Below are positions 26,336-37,373 of a DNA stretch of 64,000 bases, piece by piece; positions within the stretch are counted from its first letter, which is position 1, and each line of letters opens with the position of its first letter. Made by a program: the position numbers and the translations under genes. The notes under the pieces are model-generated. The model had not been told where the DNA came from, ran no database searches, and saw nothing but the letters and a program-made list of their open reading frames with translations. The stretch lies in contig NZ_JOMG01000005.1 in assembly GCF_000711225.1 (NCBI RefSeq), positions 186,001 through 250,000 of the forward strand, written 5' to 3'. This DNA is from Pelobacter seleniigenes DSM 18267. GTDB taxonomy: Bacteria; Desulfobacterota; Desulfuromonadia; Desulfuromonadales; Geopsychrobacteraceae.

Positions 26336-26908
26336 TTACCGTTTAGCCAGGTCTTCCGCAATGCGTTCGTCAAGTAAATGCAGATTTTGATTTAATCCCT
26401 GCACCAGATCCCGGTAACTGTCGCCGACCGGCAGCTGATTGTTGAAATGGCCGCTGGCAATCTCTGTATGACTACTGTCAATAATGGACCAATCGGCTAC
26501 CAGAGTTGCCATGCGTCCCGGCTGGCCGGAAAATCTTTCGATCACGATATTGAGGCGATATGGCTCAGGTCCGGCAATCTCCCAGGGGCTGATGCTGATG
26601 CGGGCGTTGGGGAAACTTAGGGCCAGATCTGCCCGAATCACCAGGCTGATATTGTCGACCAGCGGTCCTGCCCAGCGTTCGCGGTCACTGAATTTGATTA
26701 TGTTGGCCTGATCGTGGGTGACAATATTCGGCTGGTCCAGATAGGCGGGGAGTTTGACTTGTTGCAGTTCAAGATTGAACTCTGTCTCTCCGACGACCGG
26801 GGTGCTGGTGCGGGGTTCCAGCAGGTAATAATTTTGAATGCCGGGTGTGCCGCCAAGCTGGATACATGACGTGCACAGGAGCAGAATTAAGAAGGTGGCA
26901 TATCTCAT
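26336..26908 (-). CDS. PqiC-like ABC-type transport auxiliary lipoprotein
   Basis: A 190-residue lipoprotein (signal peptide with lipobox LLCTSC, Cys at 15) followed by the PqiC/ABC_trans_aux fold. The family strand pattern YYLLEPR is followed by VKLPAYLDQPNIV, then FSDRERWAGPLVDNI, as in proteins partnering MCE-domain transporters. It would sit in the periplasm or outer membrane and receive or hand over phospholipids. Its ATG overlaps the end of mlaD by 4 bases, so translation is coupled. It is the last gene of the operon mlaE-mlaF-mlaD-pqiC. Confidence 0.85.
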   Translation of the reverse strand: MRYATFLILLLCTSCIQLGGTPGIQNYYLLEPRTSTPVVGETEFNLELQQVKLPAYLDQPNIVTHDQANIIKFSDRERWAGPLVDNISLVIRADLALSFPNARISISPWEIAGPEPYRLNIVIERFSGQPGRMATLVADWSIIDSSHTEIASGHFNNQLPVGDSYRDLVQGLNQNLHLLDERIAEDLAKR

Positions 26909-27996
26909 GGGTTTTCTCCTTGCCCTGAACGGCCGCGTAAGAGGAGTTGTGGATCGCGTTCCAGTTCGTCGGCCAAGTAGCGCACACTTCGTGCGGTGCG
27001 TTGCAGTTCCTGCAGGACCTGATTAAGCTGGGCTAGAACGCGGGAGTCGTCTCCGGTCAGGTTGCTGACTTGCTGCATGGCCTGGTCGGCCCGAAGCGAA
27101 GCGCCTTCGAAAGCCTGTAACCCCTTATCAAATTGAGCCGCCGCCGTTTGCACCTGGTTGTCGACATTGGCCAGGGTGCTCCGGGTGGATTGCAGGGTCT
27201 GTTCGATATCATGACTGAGAGGTTCAATTTTGCCATCGATCCGCGCAATGGTCGCTTTGGCTTCGGCAATGGTGTCCTGTAGTGAAGTGGTCAATAGGGG
27301 CAGCTGCTGATTGAGGTTTTCCAGCAACATATTTAACTGGGTGGTGGTAGTGTCGAACTGGGCCAGGGCATTGTGTAGGTTAGGGGAGGTGAAAATTTTC
27401 TCGACCCCCTCCGCAGAGCGGATCAGCTTGTCCGCCAGTTCGCTTAGCGGTAAATCCTCAAAGGCCTTGGTGAGCTCTTCAAGGCTGGAACTGATGGTCG
27501 GCAGTTCCGGATATTCACTGTCATCGCCGGTCAGGACGATGGGCGTGTTGGGGAACATGTCCATATTGATAAACAACTGCCCGGTCACCAGGCTGTCCAT
27601 CTGCAACTGAGCACGCAGGCCGCGCTGGACCAGGGGCATGATCGGGTCTTCGCCCTTGACGGTGGTTTTGAAGGTTTCGAAAAAACTCCCCTTGGCCCCC
27701 TCGACGCGGACCCGGGACGGCTGGATCTCAATAACAACCGGGATGTGGAAGACATAATCACTGGCCCGCAGGCGAACGCTGATATCTTTGACCTGGCCGA
27801 TTTTGACCCCACGAAAACGGACCGGCGAGCCGACATTCAACCCTTTGACGGAACTGTCGAAATGGACCACATAGGTTCTGGTTTCGGAAAACAGTCCGCC
27901 GGGACCGAAAAACAGCAGTCCGGCGACACTTAGAATAATGGCCCCAACCACAAAGCTGCCGATGACTCTGGGATCTATTCTTTTACGTCTGTACAT
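26905..27996 (-). CDS. mlaD: MlaD/PqiB-type MCE-domain protein
   Basis: A 363-residue protein with one N-terminal transmembrane helix (about 10-32) and a single MCE domain (about 38-115, with NVGSPVRFRGVKIGQV). A long helical region (about 170-345), rich in Gln and Thr and of coiled-coil character, follows. MCE proteins form hexameric rings or tubes that carry lipids through the periplasm. The long helical tail is unlike E. coli MlaD (183 residues) and recalls LetB/YebT or mycobacterial-type needle extensions, so it may span part of the periplasm itself. It sits 22 bases after mlaF in the same operon. Confidence 0.88.
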   Translation of the reverse strand: MYRRKRIDPRVIGSFVVGAIILSVAGLLFFGPGGLFSETRTYVVHFDSSVKGLNVGSPVRFRGVKIGQVKDISVRLRASDYVFHIPVVIEIQPSRVRVEGAKGSFFETFKTTVKGEDPIMPLVQRGLRAQLQMDSLVTGQLFINMDMFPNTPIVLTGDDSEYPELPTISSSLEELTKAFEDLPLSELADKLIRSAEGVEKIFTSPNLHNALAQFDTTTTQLNMLLENLNQQLPLLTTSLQDTIAEAKATIARIDGKIEPLSHDIEQTLQSTRSTLANVDNQVQTAAAQFDKGLQAFEGASLRADQAMQQVSNLTGDDSRVLAQLNQVLQELQRTARSVRYLADELERDPQLLLRGRSGQGENP

Positions 27997-28018
27997 AAAA
28001 AGCGCATCCTTCTCCAGG

Positions 28019-28792
28019 CTAGGCGGTATCGCCCTGCGGTTTCTGATTGGAGCGGGTTAAAAAATTGATGACTCGTGGATCGGTAGAGGTTTCCAGCAAA
28101 ACTTTGGGTGGCCCTGAAGCGATGATGGTTTTGGCATCCGGATCGAGAAAAATGGAATTATCACCGACACTGAAAATACTGGCCAATTCATGGGTGACGA
28201 TGACAATGGTCGACCCGAGGCTGTCGCGCAGCTCCAAAATCAGATCGTCGAGCAGCCGGGAACTGATCGGGTCTAGTCCGGCCGAGGGCTCATCAAAGAA
28301 CAGGATGTCAGGATCCAGAGCCATCGCCCTGGCCAAACCCGCCCGCTTGCGCATGCCACCGCTGATTTCGGAAGGGTAATGCCCCTCGAACCCGGCCAGT
28401 CCGACCAGGGCCAGTTTGTAGCTGACCAGTTCATCGATCTGTCTGCCCGGCAGCTTGGTATATTCCTGCAAGGGCAGGGCGATATTTTCTCCCAGGGTCA
28501 GGGAACTCCAAAGCGCTCCACTCTGGTAAAGAACCCCGTTGTGACTGATGATCTGATTGCGTTCGGCCGGGCTGCACTTCCAGAGATCGACCCCGCCGAC
28601 CAGAATGTCCCCGCTGGCGGGTTCCATCAGGCCGACCATATGCCTGAGCAAGGTACTCTTGCCGCAACCACTCCCCCCCATGATGACAAAGATTTGGCCT
28701 TTTTCCACTGTGAAGTTGAGGTTTTTTTGAATGACCACCTCACCGTAGGCCATGGTCAGGTCGCGTACCAGCAGCTGCTTAGTCTCCTCCAT
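28019..28792 (-). CDS. mlaF: MlaF-type ABC transporter ATPase
   Basis: A 257-residue ATPase with Walker A GGSGCGKST, Q-loop region LYQSGALWSSLT, signature SEISGGMRKRAGLARAM, Walker B DILFFDEPSAGLD and the H-loop His in VTHEL. GGMRKR in the signature is typical of the Mla/Ttg2A subgroup, which powers phospholipid transport between the inner and outer membranes. The start lies one base after the mlaE stop codon, so the two are translationally coupled. Confidence 0.93.
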   Translation of the reverse strand: MEETKQLLVRDLTMAYGEVVIQKNLNFTVEKGQIFVIMGGSGCGKSTLLRHMVGLMEPASGDILVGGVDLWKCSPAERNQIISHNGVLYQSGALWSSLTLGENIALPLQEYTKLPGRQIDELVSYKLALVGLAGFEGHYPSEISGGMRKRAGLARAMALDPDILFFDEPSAGLDPISSRLLDDLILELRDSLGSTIVIVTHELASIFSVGDNSIFLDPDAKTIIASGPPKVLLETSTDPRVINFLTRSNQKPQGDTA

Positions 28793-28793
28793 C

Positions 28794-29924
28794 TCAGACT
28801 CCGATGACCTGGCAGATAACCGTAATCAACGCATCGGCAACAATGATCAGCACGATGGATGTAACCACGGCGCTGGTTGCGGCATAGCCGACGGCAGAAG
28901 CACTGCGGCCGCACTGCAACCCGCGAAAACAGCCAGCAGTGGCAACCAGAACTCCGAAAATTCCGGATTTGACAATTCCGATGAGAAAATGCTTGAGAGG
29001 AACAAACCCTTGGATTTGCTGGAAATACTGGTAAAAAGAGATGTCTAGCATGGTCGCGCTGACAATCGCCCCGCCGAGTATGCCCATAAAATCCGCATAA
29101 ATACAGAGTAGGGGCATGGTTATGCAGAGTGCCAGCAGCCGTGGCAGAACCAGAAATTCGACCGGCGAGATGGCCATGGTTTTAAATGCATCGATTTCTT
29201 CGTTGACCTGCATTGTACCGAGTTGAGCGGCAAATGCGGCACCGGTTCGGCCGGCCATGATAATGGCGGTCATCATCGCCCCCATTTCCCTGGCCATGCC
29301 GAGGCCGACCAGGTTGGCGATAAAGATTTCCGCACCGAACAGACGCAATTGGACAGCACCGACAAAGGCGAGGATCATCCCGACCAGGGTGCTGATCAGT
29401 GTAACGATGAACAGAGCCGAGGGGCCGGCGGCCTCAAGTTGGTAGAACAGGTCCGAGCCGCGAAAACGCGCCCGGCCGCGGAGAAAGGATCCCATGGCGA
29501 GACCGGTTTCGCCGACAAAGCGCAACAGATCGTTCCAGTTACGATGCGCCTCAATGGTGATGTTGCCGATTTTGGTCAGGACCGGTTGGCCAAGGATTGT
29601 CCGCCTGGTTCCCTGCCGCTCAGGAACAGCAAAGGCCAGCCGGAGAAGTTTTTGTGCGCCCTCCGGGAGGGTTTCCTGGACGACCTTGATGTCTTTTTCC
29701 CGGCAGATTCGGACCAGGTTGACCAGGAAAATCATCAAGCCGCTGTCCCAGCTTTGCAGGTTTGTGCAGTCGAAAGAGAGTTGTTTGGGCGGAGGAGAAA
29801 AGAGCGTATCCGGCAGCGAAGCTACATCCGGAATGGCGTGACGGGTACTCCAGTGCCCACTCAGTTGAAGCTCAAGCCCGTCTGTTCCGGTTTTGATATG
29901 ATATTGGCTGCTGTGATCTGGCAT
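28794..29924 (-). CDS. mlaE: MlaE-type ABC permease with N-terminal STAS domain
   Basis: A 376-residue protein. Residues 1 to about 110 resemble a STAS domain (FDCTNLQSWDSGLMIFLVNL, the fold of MlaB). The rest is the MlaE permease with five to six helices and the family segments MAREMGAMMTAIIMAGRTGAA and QVNEEIDAFKTM. Fusing the MlaB-like STAS to the permease explains why no separate mlaB gene is present. It is the first gene of the operon. No MlaC or MlaA gene is adjacent, so periplasmic delivery probably relies on the long MlaD and the PqiC-like lipoprotein. Confidence 0.9.
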   Translation of the reverse strand: MPDHSSQYHIKTGTDGLELQLSGHWSTRHAIPDVASLPDTLFSPPPKQLSFDCTNLQSWDSGLMIFLVNLVRICREKDIKVVQETLPEGAQKLLRLAFAVPERQGTRRTILGQPVLTKIGNITIEAHRNWNDLLRFVGETGLAMGSFLRGRARFRGSDLFYQLEAAGPSALFIVTLISTLVGMILAFVGAVQLRLFGAEIFIANLVGLGMAREMGAMMTAIIMAGRTGAAFAAQLGTMQVNEEIDAFKTMAISPVEFLVLPRLLALCITMPLLCIYADFMGILGGAIVSATMLDISFYQYFQQIQGFVPLKHFLIGIVKSGIFGVLVATAGCFRGLQCGRSASAVGYAATSAVVTSIVLIIVADALITVICQVIGV

Positions 29925-30024: not shown

Positions 30025-31566
30025 TTATCTGGGAGGTGTTGCGAGTTCCAGCACCGTCACCTGATTGCGACCGTTCTGCTTGGAATGGTAAAGACCGCGG
30101 TCTGCGGTTTCGATAAGATCGTCCTTGGATACGCCATAGCAGTCAGCGCCAAAGGTGGTTGCCCCGGCACTGACCGTCACATAGATCAGCTGGCCGTCAA
30201 CCAGGGTCGCAATCCCTTCAACACAACGTCGCAGCCTGGCAGCGAAGACCTTTGCCCCGGCGGCATTGGTTTCCGGGAGGATCACGGCAAATTCTTCCCC
30301 GCCATAGCGGGCGACAATGTCGGTGGGCCGAACCGCACTGCTGACGGCCCTGGCGATATTCATCAGGACCACATCTCCGGCAGGATGACCGTGTGAGTCG
30401 TTGACTTTTTTAAAATAATCGATGTCGAAAAGAATCAGTGAAACCGAGGTTTTGTATCTGGCGGCGCGGGATAGTTCATATTTGAGGGCTTCCTGAAAAT
30501 ATCGGTGGTTGTACAGACCGGTGAGGCCGTCCCGATAGACCAATTCACGCAGCCGGTTATTGGCATCCTGCAGTTCTCGGGCCAGCCGTTCAGCCTTGTC
30601 CCTGGCCTCCTGCAGCTCCAGAATCATTTGCGCGTTACCCATATTCAAATCAGCCAACTCCTGGTTGGCCTGTTGCAAGAGTATGGAGTAGGGCTGCAGG
30701 TCACCGGGGTCCAACTCAAAGGATGCCAGAATATTTCTGCTGTTGGCCGCGGCATCGTCCAGCAGTTGAGCCGTTTGTGCGTGACTCAGGGCAAAGCGGT
30801 CGGTCAACTCCTGTTGCAGGTGACGGGCTTTCTCCGCACGGCAACGACTGGTATACAGATCGGCCAGCCGGGCTGCATAGTGGAGGATGTCAACGGCGGT
30901 GCTGAGTGCTGAAGGAGCCTGCTCCGGTTCATGGTGGAACAGCAGCGGGCAGCAGATATTTTCCGGCAGCTGCCAGCTTTGCAGCAGTGCATAACCGACC
31001 TGCTGATGGTCAAAACCGTAGGAGTCTTTTTCCAGCTCACTCAACGATTGGTCAAAGAGGACCGCTTCCCGGCACAGTTTATTGTAATGATCGCCTTTGG
31101 TCTGGGCAATCACCAGCATGCCGATATCCTGCAAAAGGGCGGCGACAAAGATATCATCATCTTTTTGATTCACCAACATGGCGAGAAGGTCGGCGCTGAC
31201 CGCCGCGGTCACTGAGCGTCGCCACAGGGCATTGACATCGAAACGGCTGGCGCCGGTATCATCCAGTTCGCTGGCGATGATAAAGGAGAGGGCAATGTTT
31301 TTGATGAGATTGGTGCCGAGCACGGCCATGGCTCGACTGATGCTGCTGATCTGCCCCTGGCGCGCAAAAAATTCAGAGTTTGCGACGCGCAACATTTTTG
31401 CCGTTAAAACCGGGTCGGTGGCAATAATTTCACCCAGCTCGGTAAGGGCCGAATCATCTTTTTGCACCGCGTTGAGGATTCTGACAGCAATCGCTGGTGG
31501 CGAAGGCAGGCGCAGCTGTTGGTTGATCAACTGCAAAATTTTAAGATGATTTTCGGTCGTCTGCAT
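30025..31566 (-). CDS. HDOD-GGDEF diguanylate cyclase
   Basis: A 513-residue cytoplasmic signalling protein. An HDOD domain fills about 15-215, a coiled coil follows at about 290-340, and a GGDEF domain fills about 341-505. The active site is GGEEF at 422-426, with the metal Asp in DIDYFKK. An RPTD inhibitory site (413-416) lies exactly five residues upstream, so it should make c-di-GMP from two GTP and be feedback-inhibited. HDOD regions lack the HD catalytic pair and sense or scaffold. It is downstream of a helical-repeat gene and a stand-alone MshEN gene on the same strand, 296 bases away. Confidence 0.93.
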   Translation of the reverse strand: MQTTENHLKILQLINQQLRLPSPPAIAVRILNAVQKDDSALTELGEIIATDPVLTAKMLRVANSEFFARQGQISSISRAMAVLGTNLIKNIALSFIIASELDDTGASRFDVNALWRRSVTAAVSADLLAMLVNQKDDDIFVAALLQDIGMLVIAQTKGDHYNKLCREAVLFDQSLSELEKDSYGFDHQQVGYALLQSWQLPENICCPLLFHHEPEQAPSALSTAVDILHYAARLADLYTSRCRAEKARHLQQELTDRFALSHAQTAQLLDDAAANSRNILASFELDPGDLQPYSILLQQANQELADLNMGNAQMILELQEARDKAERLARELQDANNRLRELVYRDGLTGLYNHRYFQEALKYELSRAARYKTSVSLILFDIDYFKKVNDSHGHPAGDVVLMNIARAVSSAVRPTDIVARYGGEEFAVILPETNAAGAKVFAARLRRCVEGIATLVDGQLIYVTVSAGATTFGADCYGVSKDDLIETADRGLYHSKQNGRNQVTVLELATPPR

Positions 31567-31862
31567 AAAATCACTCTATTCCGAAGATGGTGCCGGGACA
31601 AATGAAAGAGGAGGTTACCTGCGCGGTAGAGTGATGGACCAGATTTGCTGTTGCCAACTGCTCGGTATGCATAGGCCTCTTTTTATTATATTTTCATTTT
31701 AGACGATTAATATTGTTATCCTAACCGAACTGGCGGAAATTACAAGCCCCAAAGTTAGAAGTAGTAAATTTTCCGGATGCCGGATCGCGCTTAAAGAAAA
31801 GGGATTGCTATGCAGAAAATTCGCTCCCGGGTTGTCTTATAAAAAGGCGGTTGCAGCTTTGC
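31567..31862. other. 296-base gap
   Basis: This gap lies between the HDOD-GGDEF gene and the helical-repeat gene, both on the minus strand. It is AT-rich around 31680-31730 and should hold a promoter for the cyclase gene, but no convincing -35/-10 pair or terminator was fixed. Confidence 0.35.
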
Positions 31863-32651
31863 TCAGGCCAAGCCGCGCTTTTTCTTTTCCTGCTCGAGTA
31901 ACCTCTTTTTGGCCGGGTTCTGTTTATGACTGAGCAATAGTTGTTGTAGGACCGGGGCTGATACCTGCGGAAGCCAGAGGGTAAACCAGATCTCAGGAGT
32001 TTTGCTGTTTTTCAGGATGGCCAAGCGCAGGTTGGGGCGCTGCTTCCAACGTTCGTGACGAGCGATCATGGAAATCGTTTCGGCCCGCGCGGTGGCGCCA
32101 CGCAAAAATTGAAAAACGGCTGCTTCACGCAGACGTGGGTTGGACAGACAAATCTCAAAGACCTGGGCTTGCCCTTCTTTGAGTAGGGCAGCGACCACAG
32201 TGGCGGTCCCACGCCGGGCGAGGGTGATCTTGTGGCCCAGGGGAGCAGTGGGCAAGCGCTGTAAAATTGTTCTTTCCGCCGCCAACTTTTGATCTGGCGT
32301 CGCACCGGGGAGGGCGCTGAGACTGGCCAGTTCGAACAGGCGTAAATGGGGGAGCAGGCTGCGGACAAGTGCCCCGCCGGTTGCAGGGTTTCTGACCAGC
32401 GCAAGTTTGAGGCGATGGCTTAGGTTATCGCGATGTCGCTGATAAATCGTATTGACGAGGTCTTCGCTCAGGTCCCTGCGTTTCAACAACACCAGCAGGT
32501 GGTCCTCATGTAAGTTGGGGTTTTTGAGCAGGGTAAAAAGGATGTCCTGTTGCGGTTCCTGTAACAGGGAATACAGCTCACTACTGTCTGCGGTCAAGCT
32601 GAGCAGCAGTTTTTTTGCCTCCTGTGCTGATGGCGATGTCGGTTGGTTCAT
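31863..32651 (-). CDS. Helical-repeat (HEAT-like) protein of unknown function
   Basis: A 262-residue, Leu-rich, all-helical protein. A repeated motif of the form L..NP followed by a helix appears at LLKNPNLHEDHLLVLL, LVRNPATGGALVRSLL, CLSNPRLREAAVFQFL and ILKNSKTPEIWFTLWL, which is the look of HEAT-like/DUF2336-like solenoids. It ends in a Lys/Arg-rich tail (KKRLLEQEKKKRG). There is no signal peptide or catalytic motif. Similar proteins are, to my knowledge, annotated only as hypothetical. It starts 7 bases after the stop of the MshEN gene, so the two are cotranscribed and probably act together. Confidence 0.75.
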   Translation of the reverse strand: MNQPTSPSAQEAKKLLLSLTADSSELYSLLQEPQQDILFTLLKNPNLHEDHLLVLLKRRDLSEDLVNTIYQRHRDNLSHRLKLALVRNPATGGALVRSLLPHLRLFELASLSALPGATPDQKLAAERTILQRLPTAPLGHKITLARRGTATVVAALLKEGQAQVFEICLSNPRLREAAVFQFLRGATARAETISMIARHERWKQRPNLRLAILKNSKTPEIWFTLWLPQVSAPVLQQLLLSHKQNPAKKRLLEQEKKKRGLA

Positions 32652-32658
32652 CTTCCCC

Positions 32659-33840
32659 TCAACTTTCCAGAATTTTATTTCTGAGGATCAACAACTGCAG
32701 TGCCAACTCCATTTTACAGGCTAACCGATGACAGAGGGAAAAGTGCTCCTCAAGCATTTCCAGCGGCGCCTGGATATAGAGGACGGCGACCCGTCTGTCC
32801 CTGACTTTGATCGGTAGGACAAGGGCGGTCTGCGGCAGCCTGGAGTGGAAAAAATCGAGCAACTTCAGATCTTCTTCGCTCGCTGTCAGTGGCCCCAGGT
32901 AATGGGCTGCGTTCTCAGTCGGATGAGTAAAAATAAAGCTTTTTTGCAGATCGATGCCGAGCTGTTGGAATGGTTGATCCGGATCCTCGACAGCGGCTTT
33001 CCAGCCGATCAGTTGATCGTTTTTGATGGTCAGCAGGGCACTGTCAGGGAAGGTCGGTTTAAGAAAGTCCAAGAGCGGGGTAGCGATATCCTCTCGATTC
33101 CGCGCTTCGCTCCATGTGGTCAGCAGATCTTTGATGCGGTCGCCGAGGCTCGGTTGCGGCAGGTCGGTCTGGACATGTTCAAGGCTGATCTCTTCCTCTG
33201 GTAATTCCACTTCTCCAAGCAATGGCCAAGGCTGATTAAAAATATCCTCCGACCCGGTTGCCACCTGCTCTGCATCGACTTGCTCAATCCTATGTCCAGG
33301 TGTTTTTTTGCTGCTTTTATCCCTGAGTTGGGTCAGCAGCGATTCGTAGCGCGGAGTCAGCGGCCTGCCGTAATATTTTTTAAGGGCGAGCAGCATCCTG
33401 AATTCGGAGACGATGAGTGGAATAATGGTTCGGCCGAGTTTGTCCGACAGCTGGGCTATGGTCTCTTCGTCCGCCGGCTCGATCATGGCCAGGTACAGCT
33501 TGTCTGCTTCTTCCCGTAGCGGCAGAACTTTGTAGTGCAGGGCAATTTTGGGTGGAATCAGTTTGAGCAAGGTTGGGGAAATTTTCATAATCGCGGCAGG
33601 TGGCACAAAGGGTCTGTGGTACTGCCGGCAAAGCAGCCTGGCCAAGGTGTTTTCATCAATATAGCCAAGCTCGAGAAGATTCGTTCCCAGCCGACCGCCA
33701 TGAATGCTTTGATGTTCGATCGCTTCGTCAAGCTGGGCCTGCTCCAGCAGTTTCTCGTGCAGAAGCGTCTCGCCAAGTTTGCGAACCGGTGATTTTATTG
33801 CATTTGGAGAATGAGTCTGCTTCAATCCGGGCTCCTGCAT
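32659..33840 (-). CDS. Stand-alone MshEN (GspE N-terminal) protein with GAF-like C-terminus
   Basis: A 393-residue protein. Residues about 20-75 form the two tandem motifs of an MshEN domain (KLGETLLHEKLLEQAQLDEA and RLGTNLLELGYIDENTLARL), and the T2SSE_N fold continues to about 155. MshEN domains of MshE/PilB/GspE bind c-di-GMP. Here no ATPase domain follows. After a disordered linker (about 165-215) comes a domain at about 225-390 with GAF-like features (SALLTIKNDQLIGWKA, ALVLPIKVRDRRVAVLYIQA). It is the first gene of a unit with the helical-repeat gene, and a diguanylate cyclase lies downstream. A c-di-GMP receptor is the natural inference. Confidence 0.8.
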   Translation of the reverse strand: MQEPGLKQTHSPNAIKSPVRKLGETLLHEKLLEQAQLDEAIEHQSIHGGRLGTNLLELGYIDENTLARLLCRQYHRPFVPPAAIMKISPTLLKLIPPKIALHYKVLPLREEADKLYLAMIEPADEETIAQLSDKLGRTIIPLIVSEFRMLLALKKYYGRPLTPRYESLLTQLRDKSSKKTPGHRIEQVDAEQVATGSEDIFNQPWPLLGEVELPEEEISLEHVQTDLPQPSLGDRIKDLLTTWSEARNREDIATPLLDFLKPTFPDSALLTIKNDQLIGWKAAVEDPDQPFQQLGIDLQKSFIFTHPTENAAHYLGPLTASEEDLKLLDFFHSRLPQTALVLPIKVRDRRVAVLYIQAPLEMLEEHFSLCHRLACKMELALQLLILRNKILES

Positions 33841-34023: not shown

Positions 34024-34947
34024 ATGAAGTTTGCTGAACAACCTTTGCTTATTTTTGATGGCGCCTGCGGCACCAATCTGCAGCTGATGACGATCAGCGC
34101 AGATGATTGGGGTGGTTGCGAGGGCTGCAACGAAATCCTCAATCTTTCTGCACCACACCATATCGAGCAACTGCACCGCAGTATGCTGGATGCCGGGGCC
34201 ATGGTGGTTGAAACAAATACCTTCGGGGCCTCCCGGGTGGTGCTTGGTGAGTACGGCCTGCAGGACAAAGTCAAGGAAATCAACCTGCGTGCGGTCGAGA
34301 TTGCGCGTCGTGCCATCGGCAACCGGGGCGACCGTTATGTCGCCGGGTCTATCGGCCCCGGGACCAAGCTGCCGTCCCTGGGACATATCAGTGTTGCCGA
34401 TCTTGCCGCAGCCACCGCCGAACAGGTTGACGCACTGCTTGAAGCCGGGGTTGACTGCCTGATTATTGAAACCTGCCAAGACCTGCTGCAGACCAAGACC
34501 GCCCTGATTGTGGTGTTTGAAAAACTGGCTGCCGCCGGAAGCGACCTGCCGGTGCTGGCCTCGGTGACCATTGAGCAGCAGGGGACCATGCTGGTTGGTA
34601 CGGACATTGCCGCTGTGGTTGCGACCCTTGAGCCGTTTCCGTTATTTTCACTGGGCCTGAATTGTGCCACCGGGCCGCAGGATATGATGTCTCATGTTAC
34701 TTATTTGAGCCAGCACTGGCCGCAACGTATTTCGGTGATCCCCAACCAGGGTCTGCCGGAAGTTGTCAATGGGGAAACCTGCTACCCGTTGAGCCCCGGC
34801 GACTATGCCGAACAGATGTATCGTTTCGTGACCGAGCAGGGAGTGAGTATCGTTGGTGGCTGTTGCGGAACCAGTCCGCAGCATATTGCGGCGTTAGCGA
34901 GCAAGCTTGGCGGTGTGCAACCCAAACAGCGGGAGGTGTCGGCATGA
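34024..34947 (+). CDS. metH: Methionine synthase, homocysteine-binding module (split MetH, part 1)
   Basis: A 307-residue TIM-barrel homocysteine S-methyltransferase module. The zinc ligands are visible as Cys214 in GLNCATGP and Cys280/Cys281 in GGCCGTSP. The family opening FDGACGTNLQ and SIGPGTKLPSLG are present. In E. coli this module is the first 325 residues of the 1227-residue MetH; here it is a separate polypeptide that ends right after the barrel. The next gene, carrying the other modules, begins inside its stop codon (ATGA overlap) behind a GGGAGG site. The two chains must meet to move the methyl group from folate through cobalamin to homocysteine. Confidence 0.93.
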   Translation: MKFAEQPLLIFDGACGTNLQLMTISADDWGGCEGCNEILNLSAPHHIEQLHRSMLDAGAMVVETNTFGASRVVLGEYGLQDKVKEINLRAVEIARRAIGNRGDRYVAGSIGPGTKLPSLGHISVADLAAATAEQVDALLEAGVDCLIIETCQDLLQTKTALIVVFEKLAAAGSDLPVLASVTIEQQGTMLVGTDIAAVVATLEPFPLFSLGLNCATGPQDMMSHVTYLSQHWPQRISVIPNQGLPEVVNGETCYPLSPGDYAEQMYRFVTEQGVSIVGGCCGTSPQHIAALASKLGGVQPKQREVSA

Positions 34948-37373
34948 AAGCATCTGTTGCCAGCCTTTACCAGGCGGTTGAACTGCATCAGGAAATCCCG
35001 CCGCTGTTGCTCGGTGAACGCTGTAACCCCAATGGGTCTAAAGCTTTTCGTGAAGCCTTGCTGGCGGAAGACTGGGACGCCTGCCTGAAATTGGCCCTGG
35101 ATCAGGAGGCCCGTGGTGCGCAGGTGCTCGACCTGTGCGTGGCCTACGCCGGTCGCGACGAAGTTGCCGATATGGTCCAGCTGACGACCCTCTTTGCCGG
35201 CTCCTGCAAGGCCCCGTTGATGTTCGATTCCACCAGTCCGGACACCCTGGAGCAGGTGCTGCCCCTTTATCCTGGGCGGGCCATTATCAATTCCATCAAC
35301 CTCGAAGACGGCGGAGCCAATCTCGACCGCATCTGCCGGCTGGCTAAAAAGTATGGTGCCGCCGTGGTCGCCCTGACCATCAACCTGGAAGGGATGGCCC
35401 TGACTTGCGAGAAAAAGGTCGCGGTTGCCAAACAGATTTATGACCTGGCGGTCAACAAACACGGGCTGCGGCCGCAGGATCTGCTCTTTGACCTGCTGAC
35501 CTTTACGGTCGGCTCAGGTGATGAGTCCATGCGCTCTGCAGCGATTGAAACCCTGGCCGCGATTCGCCGGGTCAAGGAAGAACTGCCCGGGGTCGGTTTT
35601 ACCCTCGGCGTCAGCAATATCAGCTTCGGCCTGCGGCCGGCGGCCCGTAAGGTGCTTAACTCGGTGTTTCTGCACGAAGCGGTTGAGGCCGGTTTGAATA
35701 CCGCCATTGTTGATGCGGCCAAAGTCCTGCCCTATGCAGCGATCAGTGAGGAAGACCGAAAGATCTGTCTTGATCTGCTCTACAATCGCGACCCGGAAGC
35801 ACTGATGATCTTTATCGATCACTTTGAGCAGGCCGTTGATAATGACGATGCTGATGACAGTGACAGCTTGCGGATGGAAGAACTGTTGCATCAGAAGCTC
35901 CTCAAAGGGGACAAGGATGGCTTGGAAGACCTGCTCAGCGGATTGCGCGGTCGCTGGCAGCCTCTTGATATTATTAATAACCTGCTGGTTCCGGCGATGC
36001 GTGAGGTCGGCGATCTGTTCGGGCGCGGAGAACTGCTGCTCCCCTTTGTGCTGCAGTCGGCCGAAGTGATGAAGCAGAGCGTTGCTCTGCTTGAGCCCTA
36101 TATGGAGAAGCTTGCTGATGAGGGTCGTACCTCCATCCTTTTGGCAACGGTTGCCGGTGACGTGCATGATATTGGTAAAAACCTGGTCGATATTATTCTC
36201 ACCAACAATGGTTATAAGGTTCATAACATTGGTATCAAGGTGCCGGCGGAAGAAATTATTGCCAAAGCCAGGGAATTGCAGGTCGATGTCATCGGTCTGT
36301 CCGGGTTGTTGGTCAAATCTGCCCTGTTGATGAAAGAAAATCTGGCTCAATTTCAGGGTGTTGCACTGCAGCAGCCGATACTGCTCGGTGGTGCTGCGCT
36401 GACCCGTAAATTTGTCGCCCAGGATTGTGTGCCTAATTATCAACAGCCGGTCGTCTACTGTGCCGATGCTTTTGCCGGCTTAAAGGCGATGCGTGATTTT
36501 GAGGCGGGCAAGCTGGTTGCGACTGACTGGTCCGATAATGCGGTGGTCAGCAACCGGCCTGGGCCGCCGACAGATGTGCTCGATCGGTCATTTATACCAC
36601 CGGCCGTGCCCTTTACCGGGCGCCGGACCGTGACCGATGTCGACCCGGAAATACTCTTTAAATATCTCAACGAAGCCGCGCTGTTTCGCGGTCGGTGGGG
36701 CTATCGGCGCGGCAAAATGGCCAAGGAAGAGTATGAAAAGCTCAATGAACAGACCGTACTGCCGCTGTTTCACCGGCTCAAGGAGCAGGCTTTGAATGAA
36801 GGCTGGCTGCAACCCAAGGTGGCCTACGGCTATTTTGATTGCAGCAGTGCCGGAAATGATTTGCTTATTCATAGCGGCGAAGGCGACAAACTGTTTAGTT
36901 TCCCACGCCAGGAGCATGCTCCCGGTCTTTGCATCGCCGATTATTTCCGCACCCGGGAAGAGGGTGGGGATGTTGCCGGTTTCTTTGTTGTGACCATCGG
37001 TGCCGCTTTAGCGGAAAAGACCCGTGAGTTATATGAGACCGACAGCTATCATGACTACCTGATGCTTCACGGTCTGGGCGTGGAATTGACCGATGCCCTG
37101 GCTGAATACTGGCATGAGCAGATGCGGGTTGAAATGGGGATTCAACAGGGCGCCAGCGACATGGCCGCTTATGTTGCCCAGGGCTACCAGGGCTCCCGGT
37201 TTGGCTTCGGCTATCCGTCCTGCCCGGATCTGGGGGCTCATCTGCCGCTCTTCGAACTGCTGCGGCCGGAAGAGATCGGTGTGTCGTTAACGGAGTCTTT
37301 CGAAATGGTCCCGGAGATGACTACGTCTGCCATTGTCGCTCATCACCCCCAAGCCAAATATTTTGCGGTTTGA
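34944..37373 (+). CDS. metH: Methionine synthase, folate-cobalamin-activation modules (split MetH, part 2)
   Basis: An 809-residue protein with the remaining three MetH parts in order: pterin-binding barrel (about 18-280, LLLGERCNPNGSKAF), cobalamin cap and Rossmann domain (about 310-540), with DVHDIGKN at 406-413 where His408 is the lower cobalt ligand, and the AdoMet-dependent reactivation domain (about 560-805, GSRFGFGYPSCPDL). It takes methyl from methyl-tetrahydrofolate and repairs oxidised cobalamin with AdoMet. The ATG at 34944 has GGGAGG upstream and opens exactly at the domain linker. The frame is open farther 5', but that part overlaps the first gene out of frame and is not coding. 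Confidence 0.93.
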   Translation: MKASVASLYQAVELHQEIPPLLLGERCNPNGSKAFREALLAEDWDACLKLALDQEARGAQVLDLCVAYAGRDEVADMVQLTTLFAGSCKAPLMFDSTSPDTLEQVLPLYPGRAIINSINLEDGGANLDRICRLAKKYGAAVVALTINLEGMALTCEKKVAVAKQIYDLAVNKHGLRPQDLLFDLLTFTVGSGDESMRSAAIETLAAIRRVKEELPGVGFTLGVSNISFGLRPAARKVLNSVFLHEAVEAGLNTAIVDAAKVLPYAAISEEDRKICLDLLYNRDPEALMIFIDHFEQAVDNDDADDSDSLRMEELLHQKLLKGDKDGLEDLLSGLRGRWQPLDIINNLLVPAMREVGDLFGRGELLLPFVLQSAEVMKQSVALLEPYMEKLADEGRTSILLATVAGDVHDIGKNLVDIILTNNGYKVHNIGIKVPAEEIIAKARELQVDVIGLSGLLVKSALLMKENLAQFQGVALQQPILLGGAALTRKFVAQDCVPNYQQPVVYCADAFAGLKAMRDFEAGKLVATDWSDNAVVSNRPGPPTDVLDRSFIPPAVPFTGRRTVTDVDPEILFKYLNEAALFRGRWGYRRGKMAKEEYEKLNEQTVLPLFHRLKEQALNEGWLQPKVAYGYFDCSSAGNDLLIHSGEGDKLFSFPRQEHAPGLCIADYFRTREEGGDVAGFFVVTIGAALAEKTRELYETDSYHDYLMLHGLGVELTDALAEYWHEQMRVEMGIQQGASDMAAYVAQGYQGSRFGFGYPSCPDLGAHLPLFELLRPEEIGVSLTESFEMVPEMTTSAIVAHHPQAKYFAV

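Follow-up and report, generated by a model that had tools for sequence, protein, structure and literature searches.

The minus strand of a 64,000-nucleotide (nt) stretch of Pelobacter seleniigenes DSM 18267 (contig NZ_JOMG01000005.1, positions 186,001 to 250,000; hereafter the window) encodes, in this order, an MshEN-GAF protein (P0001), an all-helical solenoid (P0002) and an HDOD-GGDEF protein (P0003), with gaps of 7 and then 296 nt. An initial annotation made from the sequence alone had placed these three genes in a row on one strand, and they are found there. The MshEN-GAF and solenoid genes form a tight pair that recurs across the family Geopsychrobacteraceae, and the pair, with a cyclase often adjacent, suggests a small undescribed signalling unit. 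We tentatively favour, a little short of even confidence, a reading in which a soluble receptor for cyclic dimeric GMP (c-di-GMP) acts with the solenoid as adaptor or output partner, the cyclase being an optional local source of the ligand. G and L numbers below denote genomes and loci of our samples.

Predicted domains and ligand-binding residues

P0001 (393 amino acids, 32659..33840, minus strand), analyzed by Pfam, NCBIfam, a predicted model and Foldseek, is a predicted stand-alone c-di-GMP receptor by its domain and its retained residues. The MshEN-type N terminus with two tandem motifs, as first annotated, holds up: a profile search of the protein passed both curated cut-offs (PF05157 at 63.3 bits against 23.1; NF053729 at 53.7 bits against 38, residues 21-73), and the best structural match of the N-terminal model is MshE with c-di-GMP (5htl, E 1.7e-7). 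Motif I, KLGETLLHEKLLEQAQLDEAIEHQ (residues 21-44, 33709..33780, minus strand), and motif II, RLGTNLLELGYIDENTLARLLCRQ (residues 50-73, 33622..33693, minus strand), were located in the sequence by alignment to 5htl, with the motif definition of PMC5013675; each has 24 residues and the spacer between them has 5. Twelve contact positions, six per motif, were defined after the same source and scored by alignment to Vibrio cholerae MshE. Ten of the 12 are identical and two are conservatively replaced (R9 to K and L29 to I), with all six of motif II retained, so the N-terminal domain does not lack the c-di-GMP contact residues, a weakness that the initial annotation had allowed for. Further changes relative to MshE are D108 to E and, at a turn residue of motif I, G18 to K. 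Among the aligned Geopsychrobacteraceae receptors, L10, G11, L25, Q32, G40 and L58 are kept in 22 of 22, and positions 9 and 38 are R or K in every one.

The predicted model of P0001 has a mean predicted local distance difference test score (pLDDT) of 79.6. Behind the MshEN domain, a low-confidence and probably disordered linker (residues 179-228, 33157..33306, minus strand, pLDDT <50) leads to a C-terminal GAF-like domain (residues ∼230-392, 32665..33153, minus strand), recognized from the secondary structure of the model and from Foldseek, in which this half matches the GAF domain 4g3v (E 4e-5, TMt 0.74) and, with E <1e-3, further GAF chains. The Pfam GAF profile gave no match in P0001 up to E 1; with a limit of E 0.1, PF01590 was matched in six (best 9.3e-7) and PF13185 in 12 of 35 aligned proteins. 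No ATPase domain was found by Pfam in P0001, PF00437 (T2SSE) remaining unmatched up to E 1, whereas an MshEN ATPase of the same genome matches this profile at 436 bits. The joining of MshEN to a GAF-like domain without an ATPase, proposed at the outset, is supported by the MshEN and ATPase profiles and, for the GAF-like half, by structure prediction.

P0002 (262 amino acids, 31863..32651, minus strand) has a confident predicted model (pLDDT 94.9) that is purely helical, with 18 helices, and no named family above threshold in Pfam or NCBIfam. The LRV profile reaches 11.4 bits, below its Pfam cut-off of 21.6, and among 43 aligned solenoid proteins weak matches (E up to 0.1) were obtained to LRV_2 in four and to DUF2336 in three. 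Foldseek returned nothing at E 0.001 or below, and when the solenoid profile was run against PDB sequences, a single weak match came up (8eoz, E 0.027). VIA-align listed PUF, ARM and HEAT proteins, the best Z being 8.1, which unrelated helical repeats also reach; importin, PUF and PP2A were rejected as relatives. P0002 shares the all-helical repeat architecture of LRV, HEAT, ARM and PUF solenoids at a similarity below the limits for membership. "HEAT-like solenoid", the label of the initial annotation, is fair as a description, with the all-helical architecture and the 7-nt gap upheld, but not as family membership. The same genome encodes a second P0002-like protein (L148 8997-10025), whose gene is two genes away from that for elongation factor G; we rejected it as a paralogous module, as the nearby MshEN-REC gene is several genes off.

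P0003 (513 amino acids, 30025..31566, minus strand) is a predicted diguanylate cyclase, as annotated, whose HDOD (30925-31509, 181.6 bits) and GGDEF (PF00990, 30061-30537, 155 bits) domains both exceed their Pfam cut-offs. The active site GGEEF, the I-site RPTD (RxxD) and DIDYFKKVNDSHGHPAGD are all intact, and the FKxxND and GHxxGD signatures are present; we assume the customary roles for the metal, guanine and I-site residues. At what we take to be the Hypr selectivity site, which would separate c-di-GMP from cyclic GMP-AMP (cGAMP) synthesis, the residue is Asp and not Ser.

The receptor-solenoid pair within and outside the family

Our family sample (f1) comprised 44 genomes including that of P. 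seleniigenes, among them Desulfuromusa kysingii (G026, L174), Malonomonas rubra (G025, L179) and Geopsychrobacter (G011, L188), genera that the NCBI taxonomy assigns to Geopsychrobacteraceae. A strong solenoid match (E <1e-20) is present in 30 of the 44, and MshEN-GAF lies directly upstream on the same strand in 25 of these 30, counting the G002 pair, in which one frame is interrupted. Wherever both frames were called (23 pairs, the window included), the gap between receptor and solenoid is -11 to +16 nt. In the window, a Shine-Dalgarno-like GAGGGG (32655..32660, minus strand) covers the stop codon of the receptor and immediately precedes the ATG of the solenoid, where it may act as a ribosome-binding site. 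The receptors themselves have diverged to 31-44% identity over best segments, and in a tree of 76 proteins a branch with 100/100 support separates the 22 Geopsychrobacteraceae receptors from the others (root unknown). In genus g5 (G004, G011, G016, G020, G024 and G027), argS, confirmed by Pfam, is found downstream in place of the mla genes, and the pair persists with either flank.

Outside the family, the two genes have other usual neighbors. Solenoid matches at E 1e-5 occur in 122 of 147 genomes of the order, some of them through a second, weaker family only. From 52 outside solenoid loci fetched, 46 had a called solenoid frame, and with the upstream neighbor taken as the first codirectional frame of at least 150 amino acids, a gene of the tgt cluster (two representatives are Tgt by Pfam) precedes the solenoid in at least 33. 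This is a lower bound because L116 also has tgt, masked by a spurious frame; the apparent fusion in that locus is an artifact of the same frame and was rejected. An MshEN open reading frame was present in the fetched locus of 39 of 140 solenoid frames, 38 of these in the family, although the two locus sets overlap and some genomes are counted twice. The sole outside case (L220, 981-2645 and 5596-6804) has a gene for a 554-amino-acid MshEN protein 2.95 kb off on the other strand. GGDEF-type genes, searched for with P0003, are near the solenoid in five of the 52 loci (L106, L107, L109, L110 and L140); about four would be expected by a hand estimate from the density in the P. seleniigenes genome (40 GGDEF in 5.09 Mb), so there is no enrichment.

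MshEN-GAF is similarly found elsewhere. Of 59 genomes sampled across the phylum, 10 have a match to P0001 at E 1e-20, four (including its own) over at least 340 residues, and full-length homologs occur elsewhere in the order and the class. Fetching yielded 54 outside MshEN-GAF loci (two genomes give two each, and some loci end at contig edges), 53 of them full-length. An M23 peptidase gene lies within 300 nt upstream in 27 of the 53 (seven M23 proteins were confirmed by Pfam), a neighborhood that makes a c-di-GMP link to cell-wall cutting possible; the peptidase is Csd3-like (L157 4658-7164, L164, L161, L158, L151, L156, L163 and others). A TPR-like gene, encoding another kind of helical solenoid, is found within 600 nt downstream in seven of the 53, five of the seven being confirmed by Pfam. 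A gene taken as SPOR-like had no Pfam match. Given the M23 peptidase before the receptor and tgt before the solenoid at outside loci, the receptor-solenoid neighborhood is particular to Geopsychrobacteraceae, and its simplest history is that two genes with other usual neighbors were joined once and then kept together.

We favor a receptor that acts with a solenoid partner because the contact residues are kept and the pair is maintained at close spacing despite the divergence of the receptors; because it is retained with an mla or an argS flank, with its receptors set apart by a branch of full support; and because the neighborhood is particular to the family and a solenoid of another type follows MshEN-GAF at some outside loci. 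A further reason is the cyclase gene, which lies directly downstream of many pairs and in G022 is separated from the receptor by 70 nt. We infer ligand binding, co-translation, receptor-solenoid contact and the direction of effect as follows. c-di-GMP would be held across the two MshEN motifs of P0001, and its binding would alter the way in which the GAF half, probably a dimer-forming module or the sensor of a second ligand, presents itself to the solenoid. The solenoid, probably co-translated with the receptor, would then bind or release a target as an adaptor, and the HDOD-GGDEF protein, where present, would feed c-di-GMP to the receptor locally.

Correlation of evolutionary distances was considered as a further line of evidence. 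With one control gene, the receptor-solenoid partial r was 0.65 (p 0.0005, n 20), and the same test gave 0.48 for receptor and cyclase and 0.34 for solenoid and cyclase (n 12). With mlaE in the comparison (n 7), the values were 0.60 for receptor and solenoid, 0.41 for receptor and mlaE and 0.52 for solenoid and mlaE. With both metH genes held constant, a receptor-solenoid r of 0.415 remains (p 0.015, n 16), which favors the partnership with the caveat that the signal is unspecific: under a single metH control, receptor and solenoid reach 0.50 and receptor and metH_C 0.48 (n 16). Since this control pair is nearly equal, we dropped distance correlation as evidence of receptor-solenoid contact.

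That near-equality counts against the partnership, and other observations do so too. The binding residue Q61 is retained in just 14 of the 22 aligned family receptors, the end branch of P0001 is the longest in the 76-protein tree (1.55), and a partner site was not recognized on P0002. Five family genomes carry the solenoid without the receptor; upstream of it, G001 has tgt, and in G033, G035, G040 and G042 metH is the next of the genes sought. Moreover, a single joining event inherited by relatives would yield equal counts.

We give realistic, if minority, weight to the explanation that an order-wide, housekeeping-type solenoid, mostly found beside tgt, shares a transcript with the receptor for operon convenience and that the two proteins never touch. 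The solenoid lacks a nearby MshEN gene in much of the order, its tgt-side position survives within the family in G001, the co-evolution signal is unspecific, and the flanking metH is likewise conserved. Against mere convenience stand the 7-nt gap with a Shine-Dalgarno-like site over the stop codon, the narrow range of spacing in the 23 pairs, and the unrelated TPR type of solenoid that takes the same place after MshEN-GAF in seven of the 53 other loci. The order-wide distribution and the position after tgt do bear on what the solenoid was: its origin is not that of a dedicated c-di-GMP protein, which to that extent weakens the initial annotation.

The cyclase as a separable neighbor

The initial annotation had proposed all three genes as an undescribed module and looked to their being neighbors in related genomes. 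This was borne out for the receptor and solenoid, the tight pair of 25 of 30 genomes, but only in part for the cyclase, which in the window is 296 nt off (gap 31567..31862, in which Rfam matched nothing and neither a terminator-like nor a promoter-like site was called on the minus strand) and which directly follows the solenoid in 12 of the 25 pairs. In G009, G010 and G032, HDOD-GGDEF lies farther downstream on that strand, at ∼2.5, 7.5 and 13.5 kb, and in G025 it lies beyond mla on the opposite strand. It was not seen in the locus in G002, G004, G011 and G039, nor within the 5 kb fetched in G008 and G038, the latter having two beside mlaE on another contig; in G023 the contig ends inside the solenoid, so the downstream gene is undeterminable. 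In G007 and G014, of one genus, a GGDEF gene without an HDOD match follows instead (L092 5869-6519 and L089 5489-6442, confirmed by Pfam). HQQTF or SDHQF replaces GGEEF in these proteins, and because the catalytic motif is lost and the RxxD I-site kept, they may have turned receptor. Conversely, G022 has HDOD-GGDEF 70 nt after the receptor and lacks the solenoid, and at least four genomes (G005, G012, G017 and G019) have it between metH and mla without receptor and solenoid. With the pair kept and the cyclase variable, the cyclase is a frequent yet separable neighbor.

We therefore consider it unlikely that cyclase, receptor and solenoid make up one obligate local signalling complex, in the manner of DgcJ with NfrB. 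The shared strand and the directly adjacent triple of 12 pairs speak for such a complex, and a precedent exists in that DgcJ binds NfrB and that, in some Pseudomonas, nfrBA-ybcH is followed by a putative cyclase gene (PMC8669469). In the P. seleniigenes genome, two of three HDOD-GGDEF genes (E<=1e-80) have an MshEN gene no more than 4 kb away, for which random placement gives a chance of 0.0004, a post hoc value; the second site (L242 10477-16902) encodes a protein 55% identical to P0003, next to genes for T2SSF and an MshEN ATPase. An HDOD-GGDEF paralog in G038 is one small gene from an MshEN-REC gene (L255 1411-4324). However, the cyclase is not directly adjacent in 13 of the 25 pairs (the undeterminable G023 among these), the four genomes above keep it without either partner, and the second HDOD-GGDEF locus of G013 has no MshEN nearby. 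In 18 outside genomes, with 147 MshEN matches, 0 of 18 HDOD-GGDEF matches had an MshEN match at a distance of 20 kb or less, and we rejected an association of HDOD-GGDEF with MshEN as a general rule. For any GGDEF gene, two of the seven MshEN genes of the P. seleniigenes genome have one within 4 kb (chance 0.064).

Loss of c-di-GMP binding, leaving P0001 as a scaffold only, as in XpsE, is very unlikely: the R9K, L29I, D108E and G18K changes and the long end branch would fit it, but the contact positions are ten identical and two conservative out of 12, and XpsE has eight key changes listed in PMC5013675.

Separately, tandem HDOD-GGDEF duplicates with motifs intact in both copies were seen in several genomes of genus g4 (L070, L252, L253 and L250), and one relative has a 931-amino-acid open frame running from HDOD-GGDEF into MlaE (L248 5508-8303), either a fusion or an assembly fault. 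In the window, the unit is flanked downstream by genes for MlaE, an ATP-binding cassette (ABC) ATPase, MlaD and a lipoprotein, belonging to a lipid-type ABC transporter (26336..29924, minus strand); the MlaE permease (28794-29924) has an N-terminal STAS-like stretch, weak and under the cut-off. On the other side, methionine synthase is split between two genes (307 and 809 amino acids, 34024..37373, plus strand), divergent from the receptor and 183 nt from its start. No riboswitch or other RNA reached the Rfam gathering score in the window, and a weak Fluoride match lies at the metH start.

Relation to known MshEN systems

P0001 shares with MshE of V. cholerae and with PilB/PilF the two 24-residue motifs, the 5-residue spacer, the contact residues and the fold; these proteins carry a T2SSE ATPase, whereas in P0001 MshEN is followed by a linker and GAF and there is no T2SSE match. 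MshEN outside ATPases has already been reported, joined to REC, HD-GYP, CheA, CheX and other domains, in PMC5013675, and receptors that combine MshEN with another domain are therefore a known kind; GAF is not named among the combinations in the main text of that source. MshEN-REC proteins likewise unite MshEN with a signalling domain without an ATPase (PMC5013675). P. seleniigenes itself also encodes one, confirmed by Pfam. Another parallel is NfrB-DgcJ of E. coli, in which an MshEN receptor is served by a particular cyclase; in some relatives a cyclase gene adjoins the system (PMC8669469). NfrB is a glycosyltransferase, whereas the neighbor in the window is a solenoid, the cyclase carries HDOD and the association is one of gene order. 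An MshEN receptor served by one cyclase is thus a known kind, and we recognized no description of MshEN-GAF or of a receptor-solenoid pair in the open-licence PMC literature, which was covered mostly by titles and abstract openings.

A broader proposal, which we put forward as doubtful speculation, is that MshEN-GAF proteins serve generally as subunits for c-di-GMP sensing and load onto helical-repeat adaptors, the unnamed solenoid here and TPR proteins elsewhere. The solenoid would have been recruited from an older tgt-side role, HDOD-GGDEF or the degenerate I-site GGDEF would sit in the same complex, and the result would be a private c-di-GMP circuit whose direct output is neither an ATPase nor an enzyme nor a transcription factor. 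The best-known role of MshEN is to switch pilus and secretion ATPases in response to c-di-GMP, but the domain also occurs without an ATPase. With a structured partner encoded 7 bases after the receptor, in an arrangement conserved across the family, what ATPase-free MshEN receptors control becomes directly testable, and the pair is also present in a cultured strain, Desulfuromusa kysingii DSM 7343 (L174).

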